Below are positions 1-11,825 of a DNA stretch of 64,000 nucleotides, in pieces; the first letter of the stretch is position 1, and each line of letters starts with the position of its first letter. The position numbers and the translations under genes were made by a program. Source of the DNA: Paenibacillus sp. FSL R5-0623 (lineage in GTDB: Bacteria; Bacillota; Bacilli; Paenibacillales; Paenibacillaceae); NCBI RefSeq assembly GCF_037974265.1, contig NZ_CP150233.1:5766001-5830000 (forward strand), in the 5' to 3' direction. The notes under the pieces were generated by a model, which did no database searches, had not been told where the DNA came from, and saw only the letters and a list, made by a program, of their open reading frames with translations.

Positions 1-1723
1 CACACGTAAGATCACCAAACTCCTCAAAGGCTTCTAAATATCGAATAGCTTCAATCTTACTATTGGTCGCAAGCATTGCTTTGAACTGGCTTCCCTGTGT
101 CTTATAGTTGTCCAAAAAATGCTGATTAATATCAAATGCAATCATACTAATCCGCTGATTAGATGAGGCAATCCGCTCAAACTGACTCCACTTTTTCATG
201 ACCTCATCTTTTTGCTTGTCATTTAAGTTACGAGTGATCATCTCCAAGCGGGTATCAATCGCCTTTTGATTGACTGTTTGATCGATCATTTTCCCCTCGT
301 ATAGAAGTGGGACAATCGCCTTGTCTCTTACACCGTCAGCAATCGTATATGTATGAATTAGTTTACCAAACTTAATCATGGTGCTCTTTTCTTTCTTCAT
401 GAGCGGCGTGCCTGTGAAACCCAAATAACAGGCGTTGGGGAAAACCTTTTTCATCTTAATGTGAAGTTCACCATACTGTGTCCGATGCGATTCATCGACT
501 AAGATGAATATATCTCTGGACTCTATAGGTTTTAGCTGTGTCGAAGCCGTATCGAACTTATGAACCAATGTTGTCACAATATCCGCATTGTTGTCTTTAA
601 TGAGATCGACAAGATGCGACCCTTTAGTCGCCCTGCTTGCTTTTAATCGTGTATGTTTAAACGTCTTATGTATCTGCTTATCCAGTTCCACTCGATCGGT
701 TACGATAACCACTTTTGGATTAAAATCATTCATCTCGGATAGGATATATTTCGCCAGCATCACCATCGTTAAGCTCTTGCCTGAACCTTGGGTATGCCAT
801 ATGACACCAGATTGACGATTCCCATTTTCGTCACGTTCTTGGATGGTCTTGATGATTTCCTTGATCGCAAAATATTGTTGATATCGAGTTACCTTCTTAA
901 CATCTTTATCAAAAAGGGTAAAGAAGTGAGTTAGTTCCAGCAACCGTTCAGGATGAAACAGAGAGATGATATTCTTATCTTGCGTTGTCGGCAAGCGACC
1001 TACGACGGTTTCATCCAATAGTGAATGCAACCATTCTTCTTTCTCTTCCTTCCACACCGACCAGAACTTCTTTGGCGTGTTGCACGTTGCATACTTCGTC
1101 TCATTTTTGTTCGTAGACATGACGATTTGTACATACTTAAAGAGCTGTGGAGCATAGTCCTTCCCCTGGTTGCGAATCATTTGACTAATGCCTTGTTCCA
1201 TCGAGATTGATGCCTTCTTACATTCAATAACAGCAAACGGGATCCCATTCACGAACAACACAACATCGGGACGTATAGTACCACGCCCATCCATACGTTC
1301 TACTGTAAATTCTTCAATCACATGAAAAACATTATTCTCGAAGTTATCCCAATCAATGTAATGAATCGTGAATGACTTCTTTGAGCCGTCGGGTAAGAAC
1401 TCCGTGTAGCTTCGCCCCAACATCAGTGTCTCGAAGATCTTCTCATTCGTTTTCACGAGTCCGTCTGTTAATGGCTCATCAAGATCCCGAATGGCTTGCT
1501 GAATATTGGTCTGGCTGAATTTATAGGTAACTCCCTTGTATTCATACGAGTTAAAATCTTTCAATTTTTCTTCCAATACCGTTTTCAACAAAACGTCATA
1601 GAGACTACCACGTATTGATTCCGCTTGCTCTGGTGTTAGGATTCTATATTGTAATCCCTTTAGAATATCAAGCGCTGGCTGTTGGCTGATATTACGCTCG
1701 TCATTGTTATTTTCTCGTTCCAC
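1..1723 (-). CDS. hsdR: Type I restriction endonuclease subunit R (HsdR), C-terminus outside window
   Basis: Motor and nuclease subunit of a type I restriction complex, which translocates DNA and cuts unmethylated DNA. About 574 N-terminal codons are present; the remainder lies beyond the window edge. Seen: a PD-(D/E)XK nuclease core near residues 150-170 (RPDVV...AVIECKK), Walker A TQGSGKS near residue 310, and a DESH helicase box near 408. The start is GTG at 1723, chosen because GGAGGTG lies a few bases upstream. It is the last gene of an operon behind hsdS, 43 bases away, with a terminator-like hairpin in between that may lower its expression. Family identity is certain; target sequence is unknown. 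Confidence 0.96.
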   Translation of the reverse strand, partial: MERENNNDERNISQQPALDILKGLQYRILTPEQAESIRGSLYDVLLKTVLEEKLKDFNSYEYKGVTYKFSQTNIQQAIRDLDEPLTDGLVKTNEKIFETLMLGRSYTEFLPDGSKKSFTIHYIDWDNFENNVFHVIEEFTVERMDGRGTIRPDVVLFVNGIPFAVIECKKASISMEQGISQMIRNQGKDYAPQLFKYVQIVMSTNKNETKYATCNTPKKFWSVWKEEKEEWLHSLLDETVVGRLPTTQDKNIISLFHPERLLELTHFFTLFDKDVKKVTRYQQYFAIKEIIKTIQERDENGNRQSGVIWHTQGSGKSLTMVMLAKYILSEMNDFNPKVVIVTDRVELDKQIHKTFKHTRLKASRATKGSHLVDLIKDNNADIVTTLVHKFDTASTQLKPIESRDIFILVDESHRTQYGELHIKMKKVFPNACYLGFTGTPLMKKEKSTMIKFGKLIHTYTIADGVRDKAIVPLLYEGKMIDQTVNQKAIDTRLEMITRNLNDKQKDEVMKKWSQFERIASSNQRISMIAFDINQHFLDNYKTQGSQFKAMLATNSKIEAIRYLEAFEEFGDLTC

Positions 1724-1749: not shown

Positions 1750-1780
1750 GAAGAAAAGGGCAAAGGTTAGACCTTTACCC
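1750..1780 (-). terminator. Terminator-like hairpin between hsdS and hsdR (possible attenuator)
   Basis: On the minus strand GGGTAAAGGT (1780-1771), loop CTA, ACCTTTGCCC (1767-1758) form a 10-bp stem with one T-G pair, followed by TTTTCTTC. The stem includes the last codons and stop of hsdS. Because hsdR has only a 43-base gap and no obvious promoter of its own, this probably attenuates hsdR rather than ending the operon. That role is inference. Confidence 0.65.
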
Positions 1781-3092
1781 GCACTTTTCCTGTTAGTAAG
1801 AGTTGCATTAATCCTTTTTTCTGTTTTTTCAAAGAATCTACTTCTCTTTCAAGGCATTGTATTTCCTCTACTGCTAACGATAATACCTCGGCGATTTTTC
1901 TTTGCTCATTTTTAGGCGGACAAGCAACTGGGATATCGAAAAAGTCATTAACATCTAAATTTAATAATCCATCGTTTCTAACACCTGTATTTATCACACG
2001 AGTCAAATGTCTATTCAATTTTCCTGATATAAAATAATGTTTATAGAACTCAGTGTCACCCTCAATGATTTGAAAACTATAATAAACATTTGGTATGACA
2101 GCCTCATCATAGTCTTCCAGCCTAAAAATACAACCACATGGATACGTTTTAGAATTGCCTTTGTTATAGGCAAATTCATTTTTCTTAATCAGAATATATT
2201 TTGATAGATTCTCACCCGCAATAACTTTACTAAACCTATCACTTTGATTAAGAAAACCGCTTAATGAAGAAATTGTTAAAACAGGGTACTCCTCTTTCCC
2301 CTCATTTTTCCGTAGCATCCTTTTTGATATCTTCTTTAACTTTGCTACCATCCATTCTTCAGGAAGTATTCCTACCTTTGTATCCTTATAACCTACAGGA
2401 ACCTCTCCTCCCTTAATCATTTCAAGACGTTCTTGTATTTCTCCTTCCGTATACTTTTCCCTGTCATTCCATCTGATTTGCCCCATCAACAATTTCTGCA
2501 TCAACCCCTTTTTCCGCTCTTTTTTCTGCTCGATTAGCTTTTCTTTTAGTTCAATAGCTTTATCCCAGATAGAGAGGATTGAGGCGATCTTTTGTTGTTC
2601 TTCTGGCGGTGGAATTGGAATTTCAAAAGCAAACAGGTCTTCTAAAGTTATGCTTGCTTGGTTCGCATTACCCCTGGCACTGCTTTCTATATGGTAAACG
2701 TACCTTCTTGTAGTTAGGTTGTTATATAAAAATAGTTGATCAACATTTGATTTTGCTCTAAGTCTTACAGCATTTTGATTAAGTAGAGATCCCTCTATAC
2801 TGCGAGGTACTGTTATTACCTTACCAACCATTGAATCGTATAGGGGAGGTCTTGAACCTACTGTTGTAACGATTATATCTCCATCTAACAGTTCATATTC
2901 TTTGTATACATCTTTTGTTTCAGAAGATAGGTAGATCGGATCTTCATCTCTAATTGAGTTGTAGGTTGTATCGGAGACTCGGATTACTCTAATTCCCTCA
3001 CTACGATAATCTATAGACTTAAACGCATATCCTTTTTTATAATCAACTAAATCACCCAGATTCGATAATTCCCAATTCGTGTTCTGCATCAT
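1767..3092 (-). CDS. hsdS: Type I restriction-modification specificity subunit (HsdS)
   Basis: DNA-recognition subunit that pairs with HsdM and HsdR and sets the bipartite target. The 441-aa length is usual. Two target-recognition halves are visible. The first (about 1-215) ends in the conserved region FEIPIPPPEEQQKIASIL and a charged coiled-coil spacer ending KKGLMQKLLMG. The second (about 235-441) ends FDIPVACPPKNEQRKIAEVL, another spacer, and KKGLMQLLLTGKV. The repeated helix endings are the hallmark of HsdS. The start is MM at 3092/3089, with GTAGGTGAG upstream and only 5 bases after hsdM. Confidence 0.95.
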   Translation of the reverse strand: MMQNTNWELSNLGDLVDYKKGYAFKSIDYRSEGIRVIRVSDTTYNSIRDEDPIYLSSETKDVYKEYELLDGDIIVTTVGSRPPLYDSMVGKVITVPRSIEGSLLNQNAVRLRAKSNVDQLFLYNNLTTRRYVYHIESSARGNANQASITLEDLFAFEIPIPPPEEQQKIASILSIWDKAIELKEKLIEQKKERKKGLMQKLLMGQIRWNDREKYTEGEIQERLEMIKGGEVPVGYKDTKVGILPEEWMVAKLKKISKRMLRKNEGKEEYPVLTISSLSGFLNQSDRFSKVIAGENLSKYILIKKNEFAYNKGNSKTYPCGCIFRLEDYDEAVIPNVYYSFQIIEGDTEFYKHYFISGKLNRHLTRVINTGVRNDGLLNLDVNDFFDIPVACPPKNEQRKIAEVLSLAVEEIQCLEREVDSLKKQKKGLMQLLLTGKVRVKV

Positions 3093-3097
3093 CTCAC

Positions 3098-4627
3098 CTA
3101 CAATCCAAGTTCTTTAAGGTATTTGTCCATCTGTGCTTCTGCCTCTTGAATCTCCTGCTTAATACTTGTAATATTCACTTTCACTTGCTCCATATTAACT
3201 TGATCTTCTTCCTCAAACGTATCCACATACCTTGGAATGTTGAGGTTAAAGTCGTTCTCTTTAATCTCATCAACTGTAGCTACATATGAGTATTTATCAA
3301 TGGATTCGTACTTTTCATACGTTTCCATGATTATTTGAAGATCTTCTTCTCTTAACTTGTTTTGATTCTTACCTTTTTCATAGTTACCTTCACTTGATCC
3401 ATCTATGAACAGCACATCTTTACGCTTACGATCTTTCTTGAAAACCATAATACACGCTGGAATATTTGTACCAAAGAATAGTCCTTCTGGAAGTCCTATT
3501 ACAGCATCTAATAGATTCATTTCAATAATCTGTTGACGGATCTTCCCTTCGCTTCCTCCACGGAATAAAGCCCCATGTGGCAGAATCGTTGCCATGCGAC
3601 CGTTCTCAGCTAATGAATACAACATGTGTTGTACGAAGGCATAGTCTCCCTTGGATGTTGGTGGTACGCCCCATTCAAATCTTCTATGTTGATCAAGGCT
3701 CGCTTCCATTTTGAACTTCTCATCAGTATTTCCTTCACCTGCAAACCCCATCGCCCACTTGTCCAAAGAAAAAGGTGGATTAGCAACGATCGCCTGGAAC
3801 CGCATCAACTTTCCATCTTCCAAGTGCAATGGATTCGATAACGTGTCGCCCCATTCAATCTTTGCATCATCAATGCCATGCAAGTACATGTTCATGAGAG
3901 CCAATGAATGTGTTTGCCCATTCCTTTCTTGCCCATAGATAGCAACCTTCTTACTCGGCACTTGATTAGCTACCTTAATCAGCAAGGAGCCTGAGCCACA
4001 TGTTGGGTCATATATACGGTCATTTTCTTTTGGCTTCACCAATCGAGCAAGAAGTTCTGATACCATGGAAGGTGTAAAGAACTCTCCGCCCTTCTTACCA
4101 GCATCTGAGGCAAATCGTTCAATCATAAATTGATATGCATCGCCAATGACATCTTCACTGCCTACAACAGAAGGCTTCAAAGTCAGCTTATTGAAGTCCT
4201 CCAACAATGCACGAAGCATCGCATTTCTTTCCTTCGCTTTACCAAGTGTTGCTTCGCTGTTAAAGTCGATATTACGGAATACACCACGCAGTTTCCCTGT
4301 ATTCTCGTTCTCCAACCGTTCCAAAGCTTTGTTGATGATTTCACCGATCTCCGTATCCGTACGTTTGCTATATAAATAAGCGAAAGTGGAGAGTTCATCT
4401 AAAACGAACCGTTCCCTGGATAATGCACGTTGAATCCGTCGCTCATCCCCATCATAGCGTTTCGTATATTCTTCGACATGCTCTTTATACGCATCACTTA
4501 AATACTTGATAAACAGCATCGTCAGGATGTAATCCTTATATGTACTGGAATCAATTTTTCCTCGAAATGTATCCGCCGCTTGCCATAAAACTGCATTTAT
4601 TTGTTGTGATGTGACTTGCTCAATCAT
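3098..4627 (-). CDS. hsdM: Type I restriction-modification DNA methyltransferase subunit (HsdM)
   Basis: Adenine-N6 DNA methyltransferase of the type I complex, 509 aa. Seen: an N-terminal helical HsdM domain, then the SAM-binding motif DPTCGSG at residues 207-213 and catalytic NPPF at 283-286, both canonical. The phrase GEFFTPSMVSELLARL just before motif I is also typical. The start at 4627 is preceded by GGGGGAAGAAAG. It is probably co-transcribed with the upstream methylase-specificity fusion (111-base gap) and hsdS. Unlike its neighbour at 4739-6715, every catalytic residue is intact, so this is the working methylase. Confidence 0.96.
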   Translation of the reverse strand: MIEQVTSQQINAVLWQAADTFRGKIDSSTYKDYILTMLFIKYLSDAYKEHVEEYTKRYDGDERRIQRALSRERFVLDELSTFAYLYSKRTDTEIGEIINKALERLENENTGKLRGVFRNIDFNSEATLGKAKERNAMLRALLEDFNKLTLKPSVVGSEDVIGDAYQFMIERFASDAGKKGGEFFTPSMVSELLARLVKPKENDRIYDPTCGSGSLLIKVANQVPSKKVAIYGQERNGQTHSLALMNMYLHGIDDAKIEWGDTLSNPLHLEDGKLMRFQAIVANPPFSLDKWAMGFAGEGNTDEKFKMEASLDQHRRFEWGVPPTSKGDYAFVQHMLYSLAENGRMATILPHGALFRGGSEGKIRQQIIEMNLLDAVIGLPEGLFFGTNIPACIMVFKKDRKRKDVLFIDGSSEGNYEKGKNQNKLREEDLQIIMETYEKYESIDKYSYVATVDEIKENDFNLNIPRYVDTFEEEDQVNMEQVKVNITSIKQEIQEAEAQMDKYLKELGL

Positions 4628-4738
4628 CTTTCTTCCCCCTAAATTCTACTTCCCTATTATTGTTCAAGTAGCCTTTATTACAATAATACATGATAGGAAG
4701 GAGAGTGAGTATCTCTCCCTCTTTAACAATTATCGGTA

Positions 4739-6715
4739 TTAATCAATCATCACATAAGAATCAGAGATTCCCATAATATGATAGCTCTCACTATAGTTGT
4801 GCTCCTGCCTCTTTCTCGCTTGCTCCATCACTGCTTGATACTCTTCGTCAGATCCAAGTAACAATTGTGCGATATCACGTTGCTTATCAATCGCAAGCTT
4901 TGGCAACTTAATCGACGCAACATCCTTATGACTCAATACAGTGACGGTTGTTCCACGCTGATAGGCTTGTAGGTAATATTGTCCAATGGGACTCTCCAGA
5001 AACGCCTTAATAAAATTCGGGTCGTATTGCATTGGGTCCAATACACGAATTCGAAGAAAATTCTGAGAAAATACCAACGGCTTCTCTTTGACATCTTCTT
5101 GAGTCACCACAGTCATTTTAAGCGTAGTACCACGACTGGACAGTAATAAGTCACCTGGCTCCAACTCATACTCTCGTGCTCTTTTTGGACTCAATGTAAT
5201 CCCCTTCAGTCCATCTGGTATGATCTTTCCTTCTTGCACATCAACAAGATTCACCAAGTAATGGGTTGGCTCTGCATCATCGGAATCATCCTTTGTAGGA
5301 TTAAGCCCCCTATCGACCTCTGCAATTTCACCCAGTGCTATTTTCGGGAGATCAGACTGCTCATAGTGCTTACGGTTAATGTTTGCTCGCCCGATCTTAG
5401 TGTCTACCTCTGCCTTTTCGAAGTACCTCAAAGGGAGCAGACTCCAATCATTAGATGAGATCTCGCTGACTGGCACGCTTCTGCTGTACCCATCGATTTG
5501 AGAGTAATTACGATATGCCATAACAATGTCTTCAATGTCAGACTCACGCAGTTCATTCTGATTTCGCATCGCCTTCTTGAAGCCATCTTCGGCATTGATG
5601 AACAATATTCGGTCACTCATCGTAGTAGGTTTGTTCTTATTAATAATCAGTACAGCCACAGGTATTCCAGTACCGATGAATAGGTTGGATGGCAAGCCAA
5701 TGACGGCTTCAATCAACCCTTCCTGGATCAAGTTTGCACGAATTTTCGCTTCGGAAGCACCCCTTTGAAGTACACCATGAGGAACCACAATAACCGCCTT
5801 ACCGTCTTTCTTGAGGGAAGCAATACTGTGAAGGACAAAAGCCATATCCCCATAAGCCCGACTCGGAAGACCGTATCTGAAACGTCCGTATACATCTTTC
5901 TCAGCTTCATCATAGCCCCAATTACTCACTGCGAACGGTGGCGAATTAAGGATCCCATCAAACTTCATTAAGTGTCCATCTTCATCCTTCAACTGAGGTG
6001 AGGTGATGGTATTACCCAGCTTAACATCAGTTATTTCGGGATATAACCCATGTATGATTAGATTCATTATCCCTAAAGCACGAGTCTGAGGATTGATCTC
6101 TTGACCAAATAGCTTAACCTCCTCATGGTTCAACTGTGCGTACTTATAAGCCTCGATTAAAAAACCATTTAATCCTGAAGCATGGTCACATATCATTCCA
6201 CTTGTCTTATCGAGAAGGCGTGGAAGAAGTGTGCTAATGCTTTTTGGACTATTTCCCTCCCCGCCCTGAGTACCTTCCCTTGAAATGAAAGCCTCCAGTA
6301 AATTGTCTAAGTATCGTGTAACTGTTCCAGTTAATGGATTTGAATCCTCGTATAAGTCACGATTGTAAGAATGGCGATTTAAAATATTTTCGACAACCTT
6401 ATATAGACTCAGATCATTATGATATCGGCTGTAATCATTTAAAGTAAAGACATCCTTTAAGGAATGATTCAATCTCTCCAGCTCTCGAAAAGCTATGGAT
6501 AGCCTTTTTCCTAAATCTAATCCATTCGATGTAACCACCTCCCAGGACTGGTTATTCGGGATATTGAATCCATGATCGGTGTTTTCACATAAGAGCTTAT
6601 AAGTCAGCATCGGTTGCAAAGTAAGCCTCATCTCGCTGTTTTGCATCTCGCTTCTCCAATTATCCCCAATAACCCATGCATCTTTCTCAGCCTCATTAAG
6701 AACTGCGTTTCTCAT
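4739..6715 (-). CDS. HsdM-like methylase fused to a half-HsdS domain, altered catalytic motifs
   Basis: First gene of the restriction operon, 658 aa. Residues about 1-440 follow the HsdM fold, but motif I reads DHASGLNGFL (about 177-186) instead of DPxCGxGxxL, the preceding FTP is NSP, and motif IV reads NSPPF (257-261) instead of NPPF. Residues about 460-640 look like one HsdS target-recognition half, ending VLSHKDVASIKLPKLAIDKQ. SPPF is the motif IV form known from cytosine-N4 methylases, so either altered chemistry or an inactive regulatory or decoy subunit is possible. The start ATG at 6715 is chosen over an upstream in-frame Met (6769) because GAGGAGG precedes it. The family is clear, the function is not. 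Confidence 0.85.
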   Translation of the reverse strand: MRNAVLNEAEKDAWVIGDNWRSEMQNSEMRLTLQPMLTYKLLCENTDHGFNIPNNQSWEVVTSNGLDLGKRLSIAFRELERLNHSLKDVFTLNDYSRYHNDLSLYKVVENILNRHSYNRDLYEDSNPLTGTVTRYLDNLLEAFISREGTQGGEGNSPKSISTLLPRLLDKTSGMICDHASGLNGFLIEAYKYAQLNHEEVKLFGQEINPQTRALGIMNLIIHGLYPEITDVKLGNTITSPQLKDEDGHLMKFDGILNSPPFAVSNWGYDEAEKDVYGRFRYGLPSRAYGDMAFVLHSIASLKKDGKAVIVVPHGVLQRGASEAKIRANLIQEGLIEAVIGLPSNLFIGTGIPVAVLIINKNKPTTMSDRILFINAEDGFKKAMRNQNELRESDIEDIVMAYRNYSQIDGYSRSVPVSEISSNDWSLLPLRYFEKAEVDTKIGRANINRKHYEQSDLPKIALGEIAEVDRGLNPTKDDSDDAEPTHYLVNLVDVQEGKIIPDGLKGITLSPKRAREYELEPGDLLLSSRGTTLKMTVVTQEDVKEKPLVFSQNFLRIRVLDPMQYDPNFIKAFLESPIGQYYLQAYQRGTTVTVLSHKDVASIKLPKLAIDKQRDIAQLLLGSDEEYQAVMEQARKRQEHNYSESYHIMGISDSYVMID

Positions 6716-6753: not shown

Positions 6754-6768
6754 TGTATTGACAATACA
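6754..6768. promoter_or_regulatory. 15-bp palindrome in the leader of the restriction operon
   Basis: TGTATTG-A-CAATACA is a perfect 7+1+7 inverted repeat, 39 bases upstream of the ATG at 6715 and downstream of the predicted promoter. It looks like a repressor operator. A similar sequence lies at 6841-6855. Confidence 0.55.
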
Positions 6769-6810
6769 CATTAAAACCAGTTGTGTACGTGCTGTATTTC
6801 CTTGTTTTCT

Positions 6811-6839
6811 ATAATAACTAATCCACGCCATTTTGTAAA
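6811..6839 (-). promoter_or_regulatory. Predicted sigma-A promoter of the restriction operon
   Basis: On the minus strand TTTACA (6839-6834), a 17-base spacer and TATTAT (6816-6811) give a near-consensus vegetative promoter about 95 bases upstream of the methylase-specificity fusion. Confidence 0.6.
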
Positions 6840-6840
6840 G

Positions 6841-6855
6841 AGTATTGTTAATATT
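6841..6855. promoter_or_regulatory. Second operator-like sequence upstream of the restriction promoter
   Basis: AGTATTGTTAATATT resembles the palindrome at 6754-6768 (shared GTATTG and AATA blocks) and lies immediately upstream of the -35 element. The two copies therefore flank the promoter. Confidence 0.4.
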
Positions 6856-8429: not shown

Positions 8430-9113
8430 TTACTCCTTAGGAAGTGAATTCAGAAATGCTTTATATCGCTGTTTCTCTTTCTCTATGGTTGAAACAGCAT
8501 AAACCGCAAATCCTTCTGCATTTTGCTCTTCAAGAAATTGAAAATATTCGAGCTTATTTTTCTTTTGAATTACAAGAGGCACAACTTGATTTTGTAACAA
8601 CAGAAACATCATAAGCAATCGACCTGTTCGTCCATTACCATCGGAATACGGATGGATTCGCTCGAACGCAATGTGACTGGAGCAGATTGAAAGAATGATA
8701 TCATCAGATGACTTCGCTTTTTGAATACGATTGTTCAGATTTAGAAGCCACTGATCCATAAGTGAAGGCGTTTCTTTGGGAGAAGCTGTAGAGAATGTCG
8801 CTCCTACAATTACATTCTCGTGAGACTTGAAATGCCCCTTCTCATGATCAAGTCTATCCATCAGAAGAGAATGAACATCATGAATGAAAGATATCGTAAG
8901 TTCCTGATCGATATTCTCAATAATATAGTTGAAAGCTAACTGATGATTTTCTAATTCGTAGAATTCGCGTACAGATACTTTGCCTGGAATCATTCGATAA
9001 AGTAGGATGGAAACAGCTTCGCTAAGCGTGATCGTGTTATTCTCAATGGCACAAGAATGATGTGTCATACGCACTAAGAGGTCGTCGAAATAATCTTTCG
9101 GAAGATGCATCAT
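8430..9113 (-). CDS. Fic-domain protein (class II type, self-inhibited)
   Basis: Fic enzymes usually transfer AMP from ATP to hydroxyl groups of target proteins. The 227-aa protein has the full active-site motif HPYSDGNGRTGR at residues 154-165, with catalytic His154 and the anion-binding loop. An N-terminal helix contains SCAIEN (residues 20-25), matching the (S/T)xxxE(G/N) inhibitory motif before the core, as in class II Fic proteins. The start at 9113 has AGGTGATAA upstream. Palindromes at 9129-9143 and 9198-9211 in the divergent region suggest autoregulation. Target protein is unknown. Confidence 0.92.
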   Translation of the reverse strand: MMHLPKDYFDDLLVRMTHHSCAIENNTITLSEAVSILLYRMIPGKVSVREFYELENHQLAFNYIIENIDQELTISFIHDVHSLLMDRLDHEKGHFKSHENVIVGATFSTASPKETPSLMDQWLLNLNNRIQKAKSSDDIILSICSSHIAFERIHPYSDGNGRTGRLLMMFLLLQNQVVPLVIQKKNKLEYFQFLEEQNAEGFAVYAVSTIEKEKQRYKAFLNSLPKE

Positions 9114-11034: not shown

Positions 11035-11553
11035 TTAAGTCGCTACCTTCTGGTCTACGTATTGAAGAATGCTACGAAATAAGTTAATTACAAATTTGGC
11101 TTCAGGTTCATTTATAATTTCTTCATTCGGATGAGAAAAAGACCTGTTGTTTCGGATTTCATTTAAATTCTCAAGCATTTTGGCTATTGCATTAACAATC
11201 TGATTAATTGGTAAATGACTCTGGCTGTGTTCAATTAGAAATAAAGGATGTTCTTGTTTTAGTTTACTCCAATAATCTTGTATTTTGGGATTACTCAAAT
11301 TAATTTGTAGGTCTGCTTTTTTGCATGTTTCCTTCAAGTAACCATGTAACGCAGTATGTGCTCGATCAATAGCGCTCCTACAATTATGTTGGGATATAAG
11401 TGTTTGACACTGATCAAGCGTCTCTTGAACAAACTCAAAATTATAAACCAACTCATTGATTTCAACTAAACCTTGTCCATTTATTTGATGAATCCAACTC
11501 ATTATGCTATCTAAAACTCGTTTTTTGTTCTCATACTCGGATATGTTTATCAT
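11035..11553 (-). CDS. Abortive-infection protein, C-terminal (Abi_C-like) half
   Basis: 172 aa from ATG 11553. The region SAIDRAHTALHGYLKETC followed by a helical domain and LNEIRNNRSFSHPNEEI plus VINLFRSILQYVDQK is the pattern of the Abi_C domain found in phage-exclusion proteins. The ATG overlaps the stop codon of the upstream ORF as ATGA, so the two halves are translationally coupled. In homologues I recall, the N-terminal half and Abi_C are one polypeptide, so this is either a split system or the product of a frameshift. TTG 11565 in the same frame is an alternative start. Confidence 0.75.
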   Translation of the reverse strand: MINISEYENKKRVLDSIMSWIHQINGQGLVEINELVYNFEFVQETLDQCQTLISQHNCRSAIDRAHTALHGYLKETCKKADLQINLSNPKIQDYWSKLKQEHPLFLIEHSQSHLPINQIVNAIAKMLENLNEIRNNRSFSHPNEEIINEPEAKFVINLFRSILQYVDQKVAT

Positions 11554-11825
11554 TTCATTTTCCAAATGATTTCAAAATAAGTTAATGGATATTTATCCAC
11601 TATCCCTTGTAATATCTTCGCTTGAGATAATGGAATTGCTTCGCTAAGGATCTTCATAAATTTTTGTCTCGTTGTTCCCTCGTACTTATACGGATCAATA
11701 TCCAATCCACAAAACATTGGATAAAATTGTGAATGACTGGCATATGTAAAATCACCTAAACGGCCACTTGCCCCACCTATGTATGAAAGTACAGTATTGA
11801 TTTCCTTGCCAGAGAGCTTGAACAT
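11550..11825 (-). CDS. N-terminal half of an abortive-infection-type protein
   Basis: 91 aa from ATG 11825, which is preceded by AGGAGGATAT; an upstream in-frame Met at 11855 lacks such a site. The sequence SGKEINTVLSYIGGASGRLG, then FYPMFCGLDIDPYKYEG and TRQKFMKILSE, matches from memory the N-terminal region that normally precedes Abi_C in single-chain proteins. It ends at 11550 inside the start codon of the next gene. There are no catalytic residues I can assign. It could act together with the C-terminal half or be a broken gene. Confidence 0.65.
   Translation of the reverse strand: MFKLSGKEINTVLSYIGGASGRLGDFTYASHSQFYPMFCGLDIDPYKYEGTTRQKFMKILSEAIPLSQAKILQGIVDKYPLTYFEIIWKMK

Follow-up and report, generated by a model that had tools for sequence, protein, structure and literature searches.

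Several regulators of defence operons have already been described, namely BrxR/CapW with a WYL domain, RptR, CapK/CapS and the C proteins, and BrxR/CapW (PMC9122601) and RptR (PMC12255303) are encoded first in, or upstream of, diverse defence operons, including those of type I restriction-modification (RM) systems. Methyltransferases (MTases) such as Ecl18kI, SsoII and EcoRII regulate their own genes (reviewed in PMC12707154). An engineered fusion of HsdM with half an HsdS (M1/2Sfus) dimerises and reads ACCN5GGT (PMC6158711), and the half-HsdS MTase EcoR124INT reads GAAN7TTC and is inhibited by Ocr (PMC2877798). PacII M1/M2 is a non-canonical type I MTase of the N6-adenine/N4-cytosine (m6A/m4C) kind, in which M2 has NPPY, and PacII is inhibited by Ocr and ArdA (PMC9613975). 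In this study, we analysed a stretch of 64,000 nucleotides from Paenibacillus sp. FSL R5-0623 (the window, along which positions are numbered), in which a gene coding for a degenerate HsdM-like MTase fused to half an HsdS leads a type I RM operon. We regard it as likely that this fusion is a pseudo-methyltransferase transcription factor autoregulating its operon via GTA-N7-TAC, probably by repression. The regulatory role is already known; what is new is the protein family and the part that reads DNA, and no report of a pseudo-methyltransferase bearing a target-recognition domain (TRD) as a defence-operon regulator was found in the open-access papers searched.

The host genome is one contig of 6.97 Mb, and the nearest record is Paenibacillus polymyxa ISL-58, whose fusion is 99% identical. 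The operon lies on the minus strand in the order fusion, hsdM, hsdS, hsdR:

4739..6715, minus strand, fusion gene: degenerate HsdM-like MTase (residues 1-440) and one HsdS-type TRD with C-terminal helix (441-658)
5396..6715, minus strand, HsdM-like half of the fusion (PF02384, PDB sequence match, Foldseek)
4742..5395, minus strand, half-HsdS of the fusion: one TRD and C-terminal helix, presumed reader of a GTA half-site (PADLOC Specificity_I, AF2, VIA)
3098..4627, minus strand, canonical hsdM (NPPF, DPTCGSGS)
1767..3092, minus strand, hsdS with two TRDs
1..1723, minus strand, hsdR, N-terminal 574 amino acids (aa), cut by the window edge

The sequence-only reading had placed an HsdM-like methylase with one HsdS TRD at the head of an hsdM-hsdS-hsdR operon here, which was confirmed by PF02384, PADLOC and structure models. 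The open reading frame starts at the ATG at 6715, with an AGGAGG ribosome-binding site, and codes for 658 aa. Its N6_Mtase match (PF02384, 253 bits) covers residues 138-437, or 156-455 of the 676-aa frame that opens with a GTG at 6769; this longer start overlaps a palindrome at 6755-6767, described below, and is unlikely. The TRD was recognised by PADLOC as Specificity_I (E 6e-16), and its Pfam Methylase_S score of 21.2 bits was slightly below the cut-off of 22. The fusion scored 143.6 bits against the curated NCBIfam hsdM cut-off of 242.75, whereas the neighbouring HsdM, to which it is homologous (about 33-40%), scored 297.8.

A structure-based search related the HsdM-like half to PacII M1 (7vru_A; Foldseek E 3.9e-33), which was also its best PDB sequence match (E 1.7e-63). 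When the whole protein was modelled with AlphaFold, the methylase half alone was modelled well and the placement of the two halves was of low confidence; since the alignment contained no TRDs, the TRD was modelled separately (AF2, pLDDT 80.6). The solved structure closest to this TRD model was Esub1 (8vsq, 8vsr; VIA Z 21.2 over 196 residues), and PacII S gave a VIA Z of 18.8. Unlike the fusion, Esub1 is a free-standing half-HsdS of ~200 aa with no HsdM part; no papers on its function were found among the open-access papers searched. PacII, which of all solved structures is closest in both sequence and fold, resembles our locus in that one operon includes a second HsdM unlike the first, but its M1 and M2 keep NPPF/NPPY, share a full HsdS, and neither is fused to a TRD. 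A single TRD joined to HsdM, as found here, is the architecture of half-HsdS/HsdM fusion MTases. In a Pfam scan of the fusion at E<=1, there was no nuclease family, a domain that type IIG restriction enzymes have at the N-terminus, and no WYL or HTH family, as in BrxR/CapW (WYL) or the C proteins (HTH).

Overall, 1,359 genomes were searched, and the loci of relatives are given below as L numbers. In full-length searches, fusions numbered 14 in 399 genomes of Bacilli and 4 in 346 genomes of the same order, which overlap the Bacilli set, and 348 genomes of the phylum gave 5 additional ones. Those of Salimicrobium, Lactococcus and Paenibacillus crassostreae are plasmid-borne. The methylase parts of the fusions formed one clade, spread over Bacillota and separate from 26 HsdMs (support 98/90), although its inner branching order is unsure because several fusion branches are long; the HsdMs adjoining fusions were scattered over several places in the tree. 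No full-length relative was present in 50,697 phage records, and viral contigs gave mostly ordinary HsdM and no clear full-length fusion, which speaks against a phage origin.

The two catalytic motifs of the fusion are altered:

6164..6187, minus strand, motif I DHASGLNG (canonical DPxxG[ST]G), read from sequence and alignment
5933..5947, minus strand, motif IV NSPPF, with Ser at the catalytic Asn position, from alignment

Both had been read correctly from the sequence, as had the canonical nature of the neighbouring HsdM, which has DPTCGSGS and NPPF. In an alignment of 22 fusions with 26 HsdMs, the G[ST]G of motif I was kept in 1/22 fusions and NPP(F/Y) of motif IV in 2/22, and both were kept in 26/26 HsdMs. 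The motif I variants of other fusions include DHASG, DGTAG, DSMCG and NGCLG, and those of motif IV are xSPPF, EPPF, NFPF, NVPF, DPPF, VPPF, SIPF, DLPF and HPPL. The ratio of nonsynonymous to synonymous divergence (dN/dS) of the fusion was 0.15-0.18 in unsaturated homologue pairs, i.e., purifying selection, which excludes a decaying pseudogene or chance decay. The divergent changes across branches, combined with this selection, point to an MTase fold that would have lost catalysis and kept a function. The suggestion of a catalytically dead protein was thus supported, as the family lost motifs I and IV in many different ways.

The other suggestion of the sequence-only reading, a second methylase of the m4C type, fared worse. 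A second active MTase (m4C or m6A) would place an extra operon mark at a palindrome such as GTAN7TAC, and it is favoured by the resemblance of NSPPF to the SPP(Y/F) of N4-cytosine enzymes, by the known occurrence of two M subunits in type I systems of the m6A/m4C kind (PacII, PMC9613975), and by the NPPF retained in L043 and L044. We consider it very unlikely given the single G[ST]G among 22 fusions and the E/F/D/V/I/H variants of motif IV in most relatives. The form xSPPF is confined to a Paenibacillus sub-clade, and relatives with EPPF, NFPF, DPPF, VPPF, SIPF or HPPL have a broken motif I. Moreover, M2 of the PacII type has a full-length S and NPPY, the latter found in 0 of the 22 aligned fusions, and the concentration of sites at one promoter, shown next, fits an operator and not a protection mark.

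The promoter of the fusion gene, the best of its region, lies between two candidate operators:

6755..6767, minus strand, proximal candidate operator GTATTGTCAATAC, perfect palindrome GTAN7TAC
6811..6839, minus strand, promoter TTTACA, 17 nt, TATTAT (10/12 matches)
6842..6854, minus strand, distal candidate operator ATATTAACAATAC with one mismatch, 2 bp ahead of the -35 box

GTA-N7-TAC was first spotted by reading upstream regions, and an unbiased count was then made of 832 bipartite palindromes (64 half-sites at 13 spacings) in the 250 bp upstream of 13 fusions. GTAN7TAC ranked first by a wide margin, with 13 sites in 9/13 loci against 0.59 sites expected. In eight loci beyond this discovery count (four of them scored as explained below), there were 9 sites in 6/8 loci against 0.52 expected, a number reached by 0 of 5,000 dinucleotide shuffles. 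Fusion promoters had a GTAN7TAC density of 4.4/kb, compared with 0.20/kb in the rest of these loci; in AT-rich stretches away from the promoters there were 0.057 sites per window compared with 1.1, and the palindrome occurred in 2/14 hsdM operons without a fusion. The position of the sites also recurs. In L045 and in the four loci from Paenibacillus, 2-4 bp separate the distal site, which has one mismatch each in the window and in L045, from the -35 box, and the proximal site lies between the -10 box and the ribosome-binding site; in L046, L048 and L008 the gap between site and -35 box is about 10-12 bp, and most of these loci have a second copy ahead of the ribosome-binding site. On the Lactococcus plasmids the palindrome is perfect over 25 bp, AACTTAGTATTTCGAATACTAAGTT. 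In the 6.97-Mb genome the perfect form GTATTGNCAATAC occurs once, at the fusion promoter, and with <=1 mismatch it occurs at 15 places versus 19 for a reversed control; therefore, a wider regulon was unsupported.

Two features of a defence-operon autoregulator, the first position in diverse defence operons and conserved palindromes in its own promoter, were found for the fusion, and we propose the following model as likely. Two copies of the fusion would pair, their half-HsdS parts making a pseudo-HsdS, and the dimer would read the symmetric bipartite GTA-N7-TAC, each TRD presumably reading one GTA half-site. The bound fusion would repress, or balance, its own transcription and that of the restriction genes behind it. 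Dimerisation on GTAN7TAC is proposed because the engineered HsdM-half-HsdS and the half-HsdS MTase read palindromes of the same form. M1/2Sfus and EcoR124INT share with the fusion the HsdM-then-TRD order or a half-HsdS dimer and a symmetric bipartite site, in EcoR124INT with the identical 7-bp spacing; however, they are laboratory-made active methylases, whereas the natural fusion no longer has its catalytic motifs and is associated with sites in promoters. With one candidate operator preceding the -35 box and the other following the -10 box, ahead of the ribosome-binding site, a bound protein would repress or balance the operon, and with a near-consensus promoter bracketed by sites a repressor role seems most likely. 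Like that of the fusion, the promoters of BrxR/CapW and RptR themselves contain palindromic sites or inverted repeats, but BrxR is a winged-HTH and WYL protein and RptR a small helical one, neither of them derived from an MTase. In Ecl18kI, SsoII and EcoRII an MTase polypeptide likewise controls transcription of its own RM operon; in contrast, these enzymes belong to type II and have a repressor domain fused to them, while in the fusion DNA binding presumably falls to the TRD and catalysis has been lost.

Several points weigh against autoregulation by the fusion. In L008, L126, L127 and L148 the region scored was that upstream of the preceding co-directed gene, chosen after looking because no exact site was found directly upstream of the fusion, and the fusion-proximal region of L008 was in the discovery set, without a site; among the remaining four new loci (L128, L129, L130 and L147), an exact GTAN7TAC was present in 3/4. 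L045, L049-L051, L130 and L148 have no exact GTAN7TAC; beside the -35 box they show near-matches or palindromes of another kind, such as AAAGTTATGCATAACTTT in L051 and TAGGTTATAAAAAACCTA in L130, both of the form GTT-N6-AAC. The TRDs of the L049-L051 and L130 fusions are more diverged, and an altered half-site would fit this. The position of the distal site would also suit an activator. The fusions of L043 and L044 are those that retain NPPF, and that of L043 (L043:3257-5176), with one GTAN7TAC site, also retains DGAAGSGG and GGEFFTP; this oldest-looking branch may represent an ancestral active state, still methylating. Finally, the palindromes could be owned by another, unlinked regulator, the fusion having some other role, e.g., that of a stand-alone phage sensor. 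We infer dimerisation and repression by the fusion, what relieves the repression, and its binding to the sites, the last of which leaves room for such a regulator, and L148, a locus with a near-match, is an orphan. It is nevertheless highly improbable, as the sites recur in loci of Paenibacillus, Salimicrobium, Lactococcus and other Bacillota that share only the fusion gene, and their spacing and symmetry are those expected for a half-HsdS dimer.

The genes behind the fusion provided further evidence. In most loci no other RM-type gene of the operon precedes the fusion, which is also the gene common to all loci and recurs as the first gene of defence operons, and in the papers searched we found no description of it as a common member of a described subfamily. 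Downstream there are type I systems of differing families, including an EcoEI-like one in L044, and a fusion 73% identical to that of the window stands ahead of an unrelated type I family (L007/L055). In L048:303-6337 the genes after the fusion code for a PLD-domain helicase and a type-IIG-like methylase, which match the models 'HKD+Snf2' and REase_MTase_IIG of PADLOC; in L046 and L047 the type I genes have decayed and are followed by Druantia I genes, with fusion and both palindromes intact; L043 has a UvrD-helicase fragment alone, and the orphan fusion of L148 has no RM genes behind it. Near-identical fusions (98.6-99% identical) precede different hsdS genes. Between the window and L006, from near-identical strains, DNA identity was ~99% over the fusion and intergenic region, ~80-86% within hsdM and lower in hsdS, with a synonymous divergence (dS) of 0.018 in the fusion as against 1.27 in hsdM. 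The breakpoint lies near 4500, inside hsdM; hsdM, hsdS and hsdR differ and the promoter is the same. From this sharp drop in identity, we conclude that hsdMSR was swapped by recombination behind an unchanged fusion and promoter. A specificity common to fusion and hsdS was rejected, as hsdS was swapped while the fusion TRD stayed.

The sequence-only reading had also suggested a subunit that competes for or modulates the complex. Such a dead subunit would pair with the resident HsdM and/or HsdS, tuning or blocking it as a decoy or in a mixed complex, in keeping with the homology of the fusion to HsdM, its half HsdS, and the fact that in type I loci it is always encoded alongside MTase genes. However, its partners change between loci, which disfavours a fixed complex with the HsdM and HsdS of its operon: the same fusion serves differing hsdS genes (L006), an unrelated type I family follows the 73% relative, and others head the helicase/IIG-like pair or the decayed type I genes, or have no RM genes behind them. 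The promoter palindromes would also be left unexplained. We therefore judge this role unlikely, and less so than the second MTase or the unlinked regulator; transcriptional autoregulation accords better with the varied downstream genes and the GTAN7TAC sites.

If the fusion is a repressor, it may also act as a tripwire, an extension that we hold to be possible but doubtful. Phage DNA mimics of the Ocr/ArdA type bind the type I MTase core; since the fusion has the same build, they would bind it as well, and by pulling it off its operators would switch the defence operon on. That such proteins might release it is a natural idea given that Ocr inhibits EcoR124INT and that Ocr and ArdA inhibit PacII. 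If true, it would induce the operon precisely when restriction is under attack, and would explain why a pseudo-methyltransferase, rather than a small HTH protein, heads such varied systems.

Other features were observed around the operon:

4697..4721, minus strand, 9-bp hairpin between fusion and hsdM, no U-run
8430-9113, minus strand, Fic-family protein, upstream of the operon (Pfam scan)
11035-11565, minus strand, Abi_C protein, upstream of the operon (Pfam scan)

At the place matching the hairpin, a stem of 9-12 bp, of differing sequence and also with no U-run, is present in L040, L041 and L055; in these three and the window, four Paenibacillus loci, it is perhaps a second control point. 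The Fic and Abi_C genes suggest a small defence island. A DUF2325 gene sometimes precedes the fusion (L008:7595-7918, L042:11721-12035), and a similar sequence, read from the DNA, does so in L043 and L044; no papers linking DUF2325 with restriction were found among the open-access papers searched. An unnamed gene of ~170 aa precedes the fusion in L126, L127 and L148. Weakly alike proteins of ~150-190 aa, with no Pfam family, recur near fusions:

L008:9896-10351
L126:11213-11713
L127:4216-4731
L040:1441-1968
L041:14831-15403

On a Lactococcus plasmid (L147:11987-15314), the fusion operon carries hsdS together with additional partial hsdS genes and a XerA-type recombinase, a set that probably serves specificity switching.

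Database names like 'N-6 DNA methylase' conceal these fusions among methylases. The known regulators ahead of diverse defence systems that we found, BrxR and RptR, are ordinary small or winged-helix DNA-binding proteins. The idea of a repressor that senses anti-restriction proteins is directly testable. If autoregulation by the fusion holds, the protein would be a retired RM enzyme whose TRD reads one conserved operator rather than a fast-changing target, the GTA half-site could be assigned to one family of TRD sequences, and the fusion would show that TRDs serve as transcription factors in nature.
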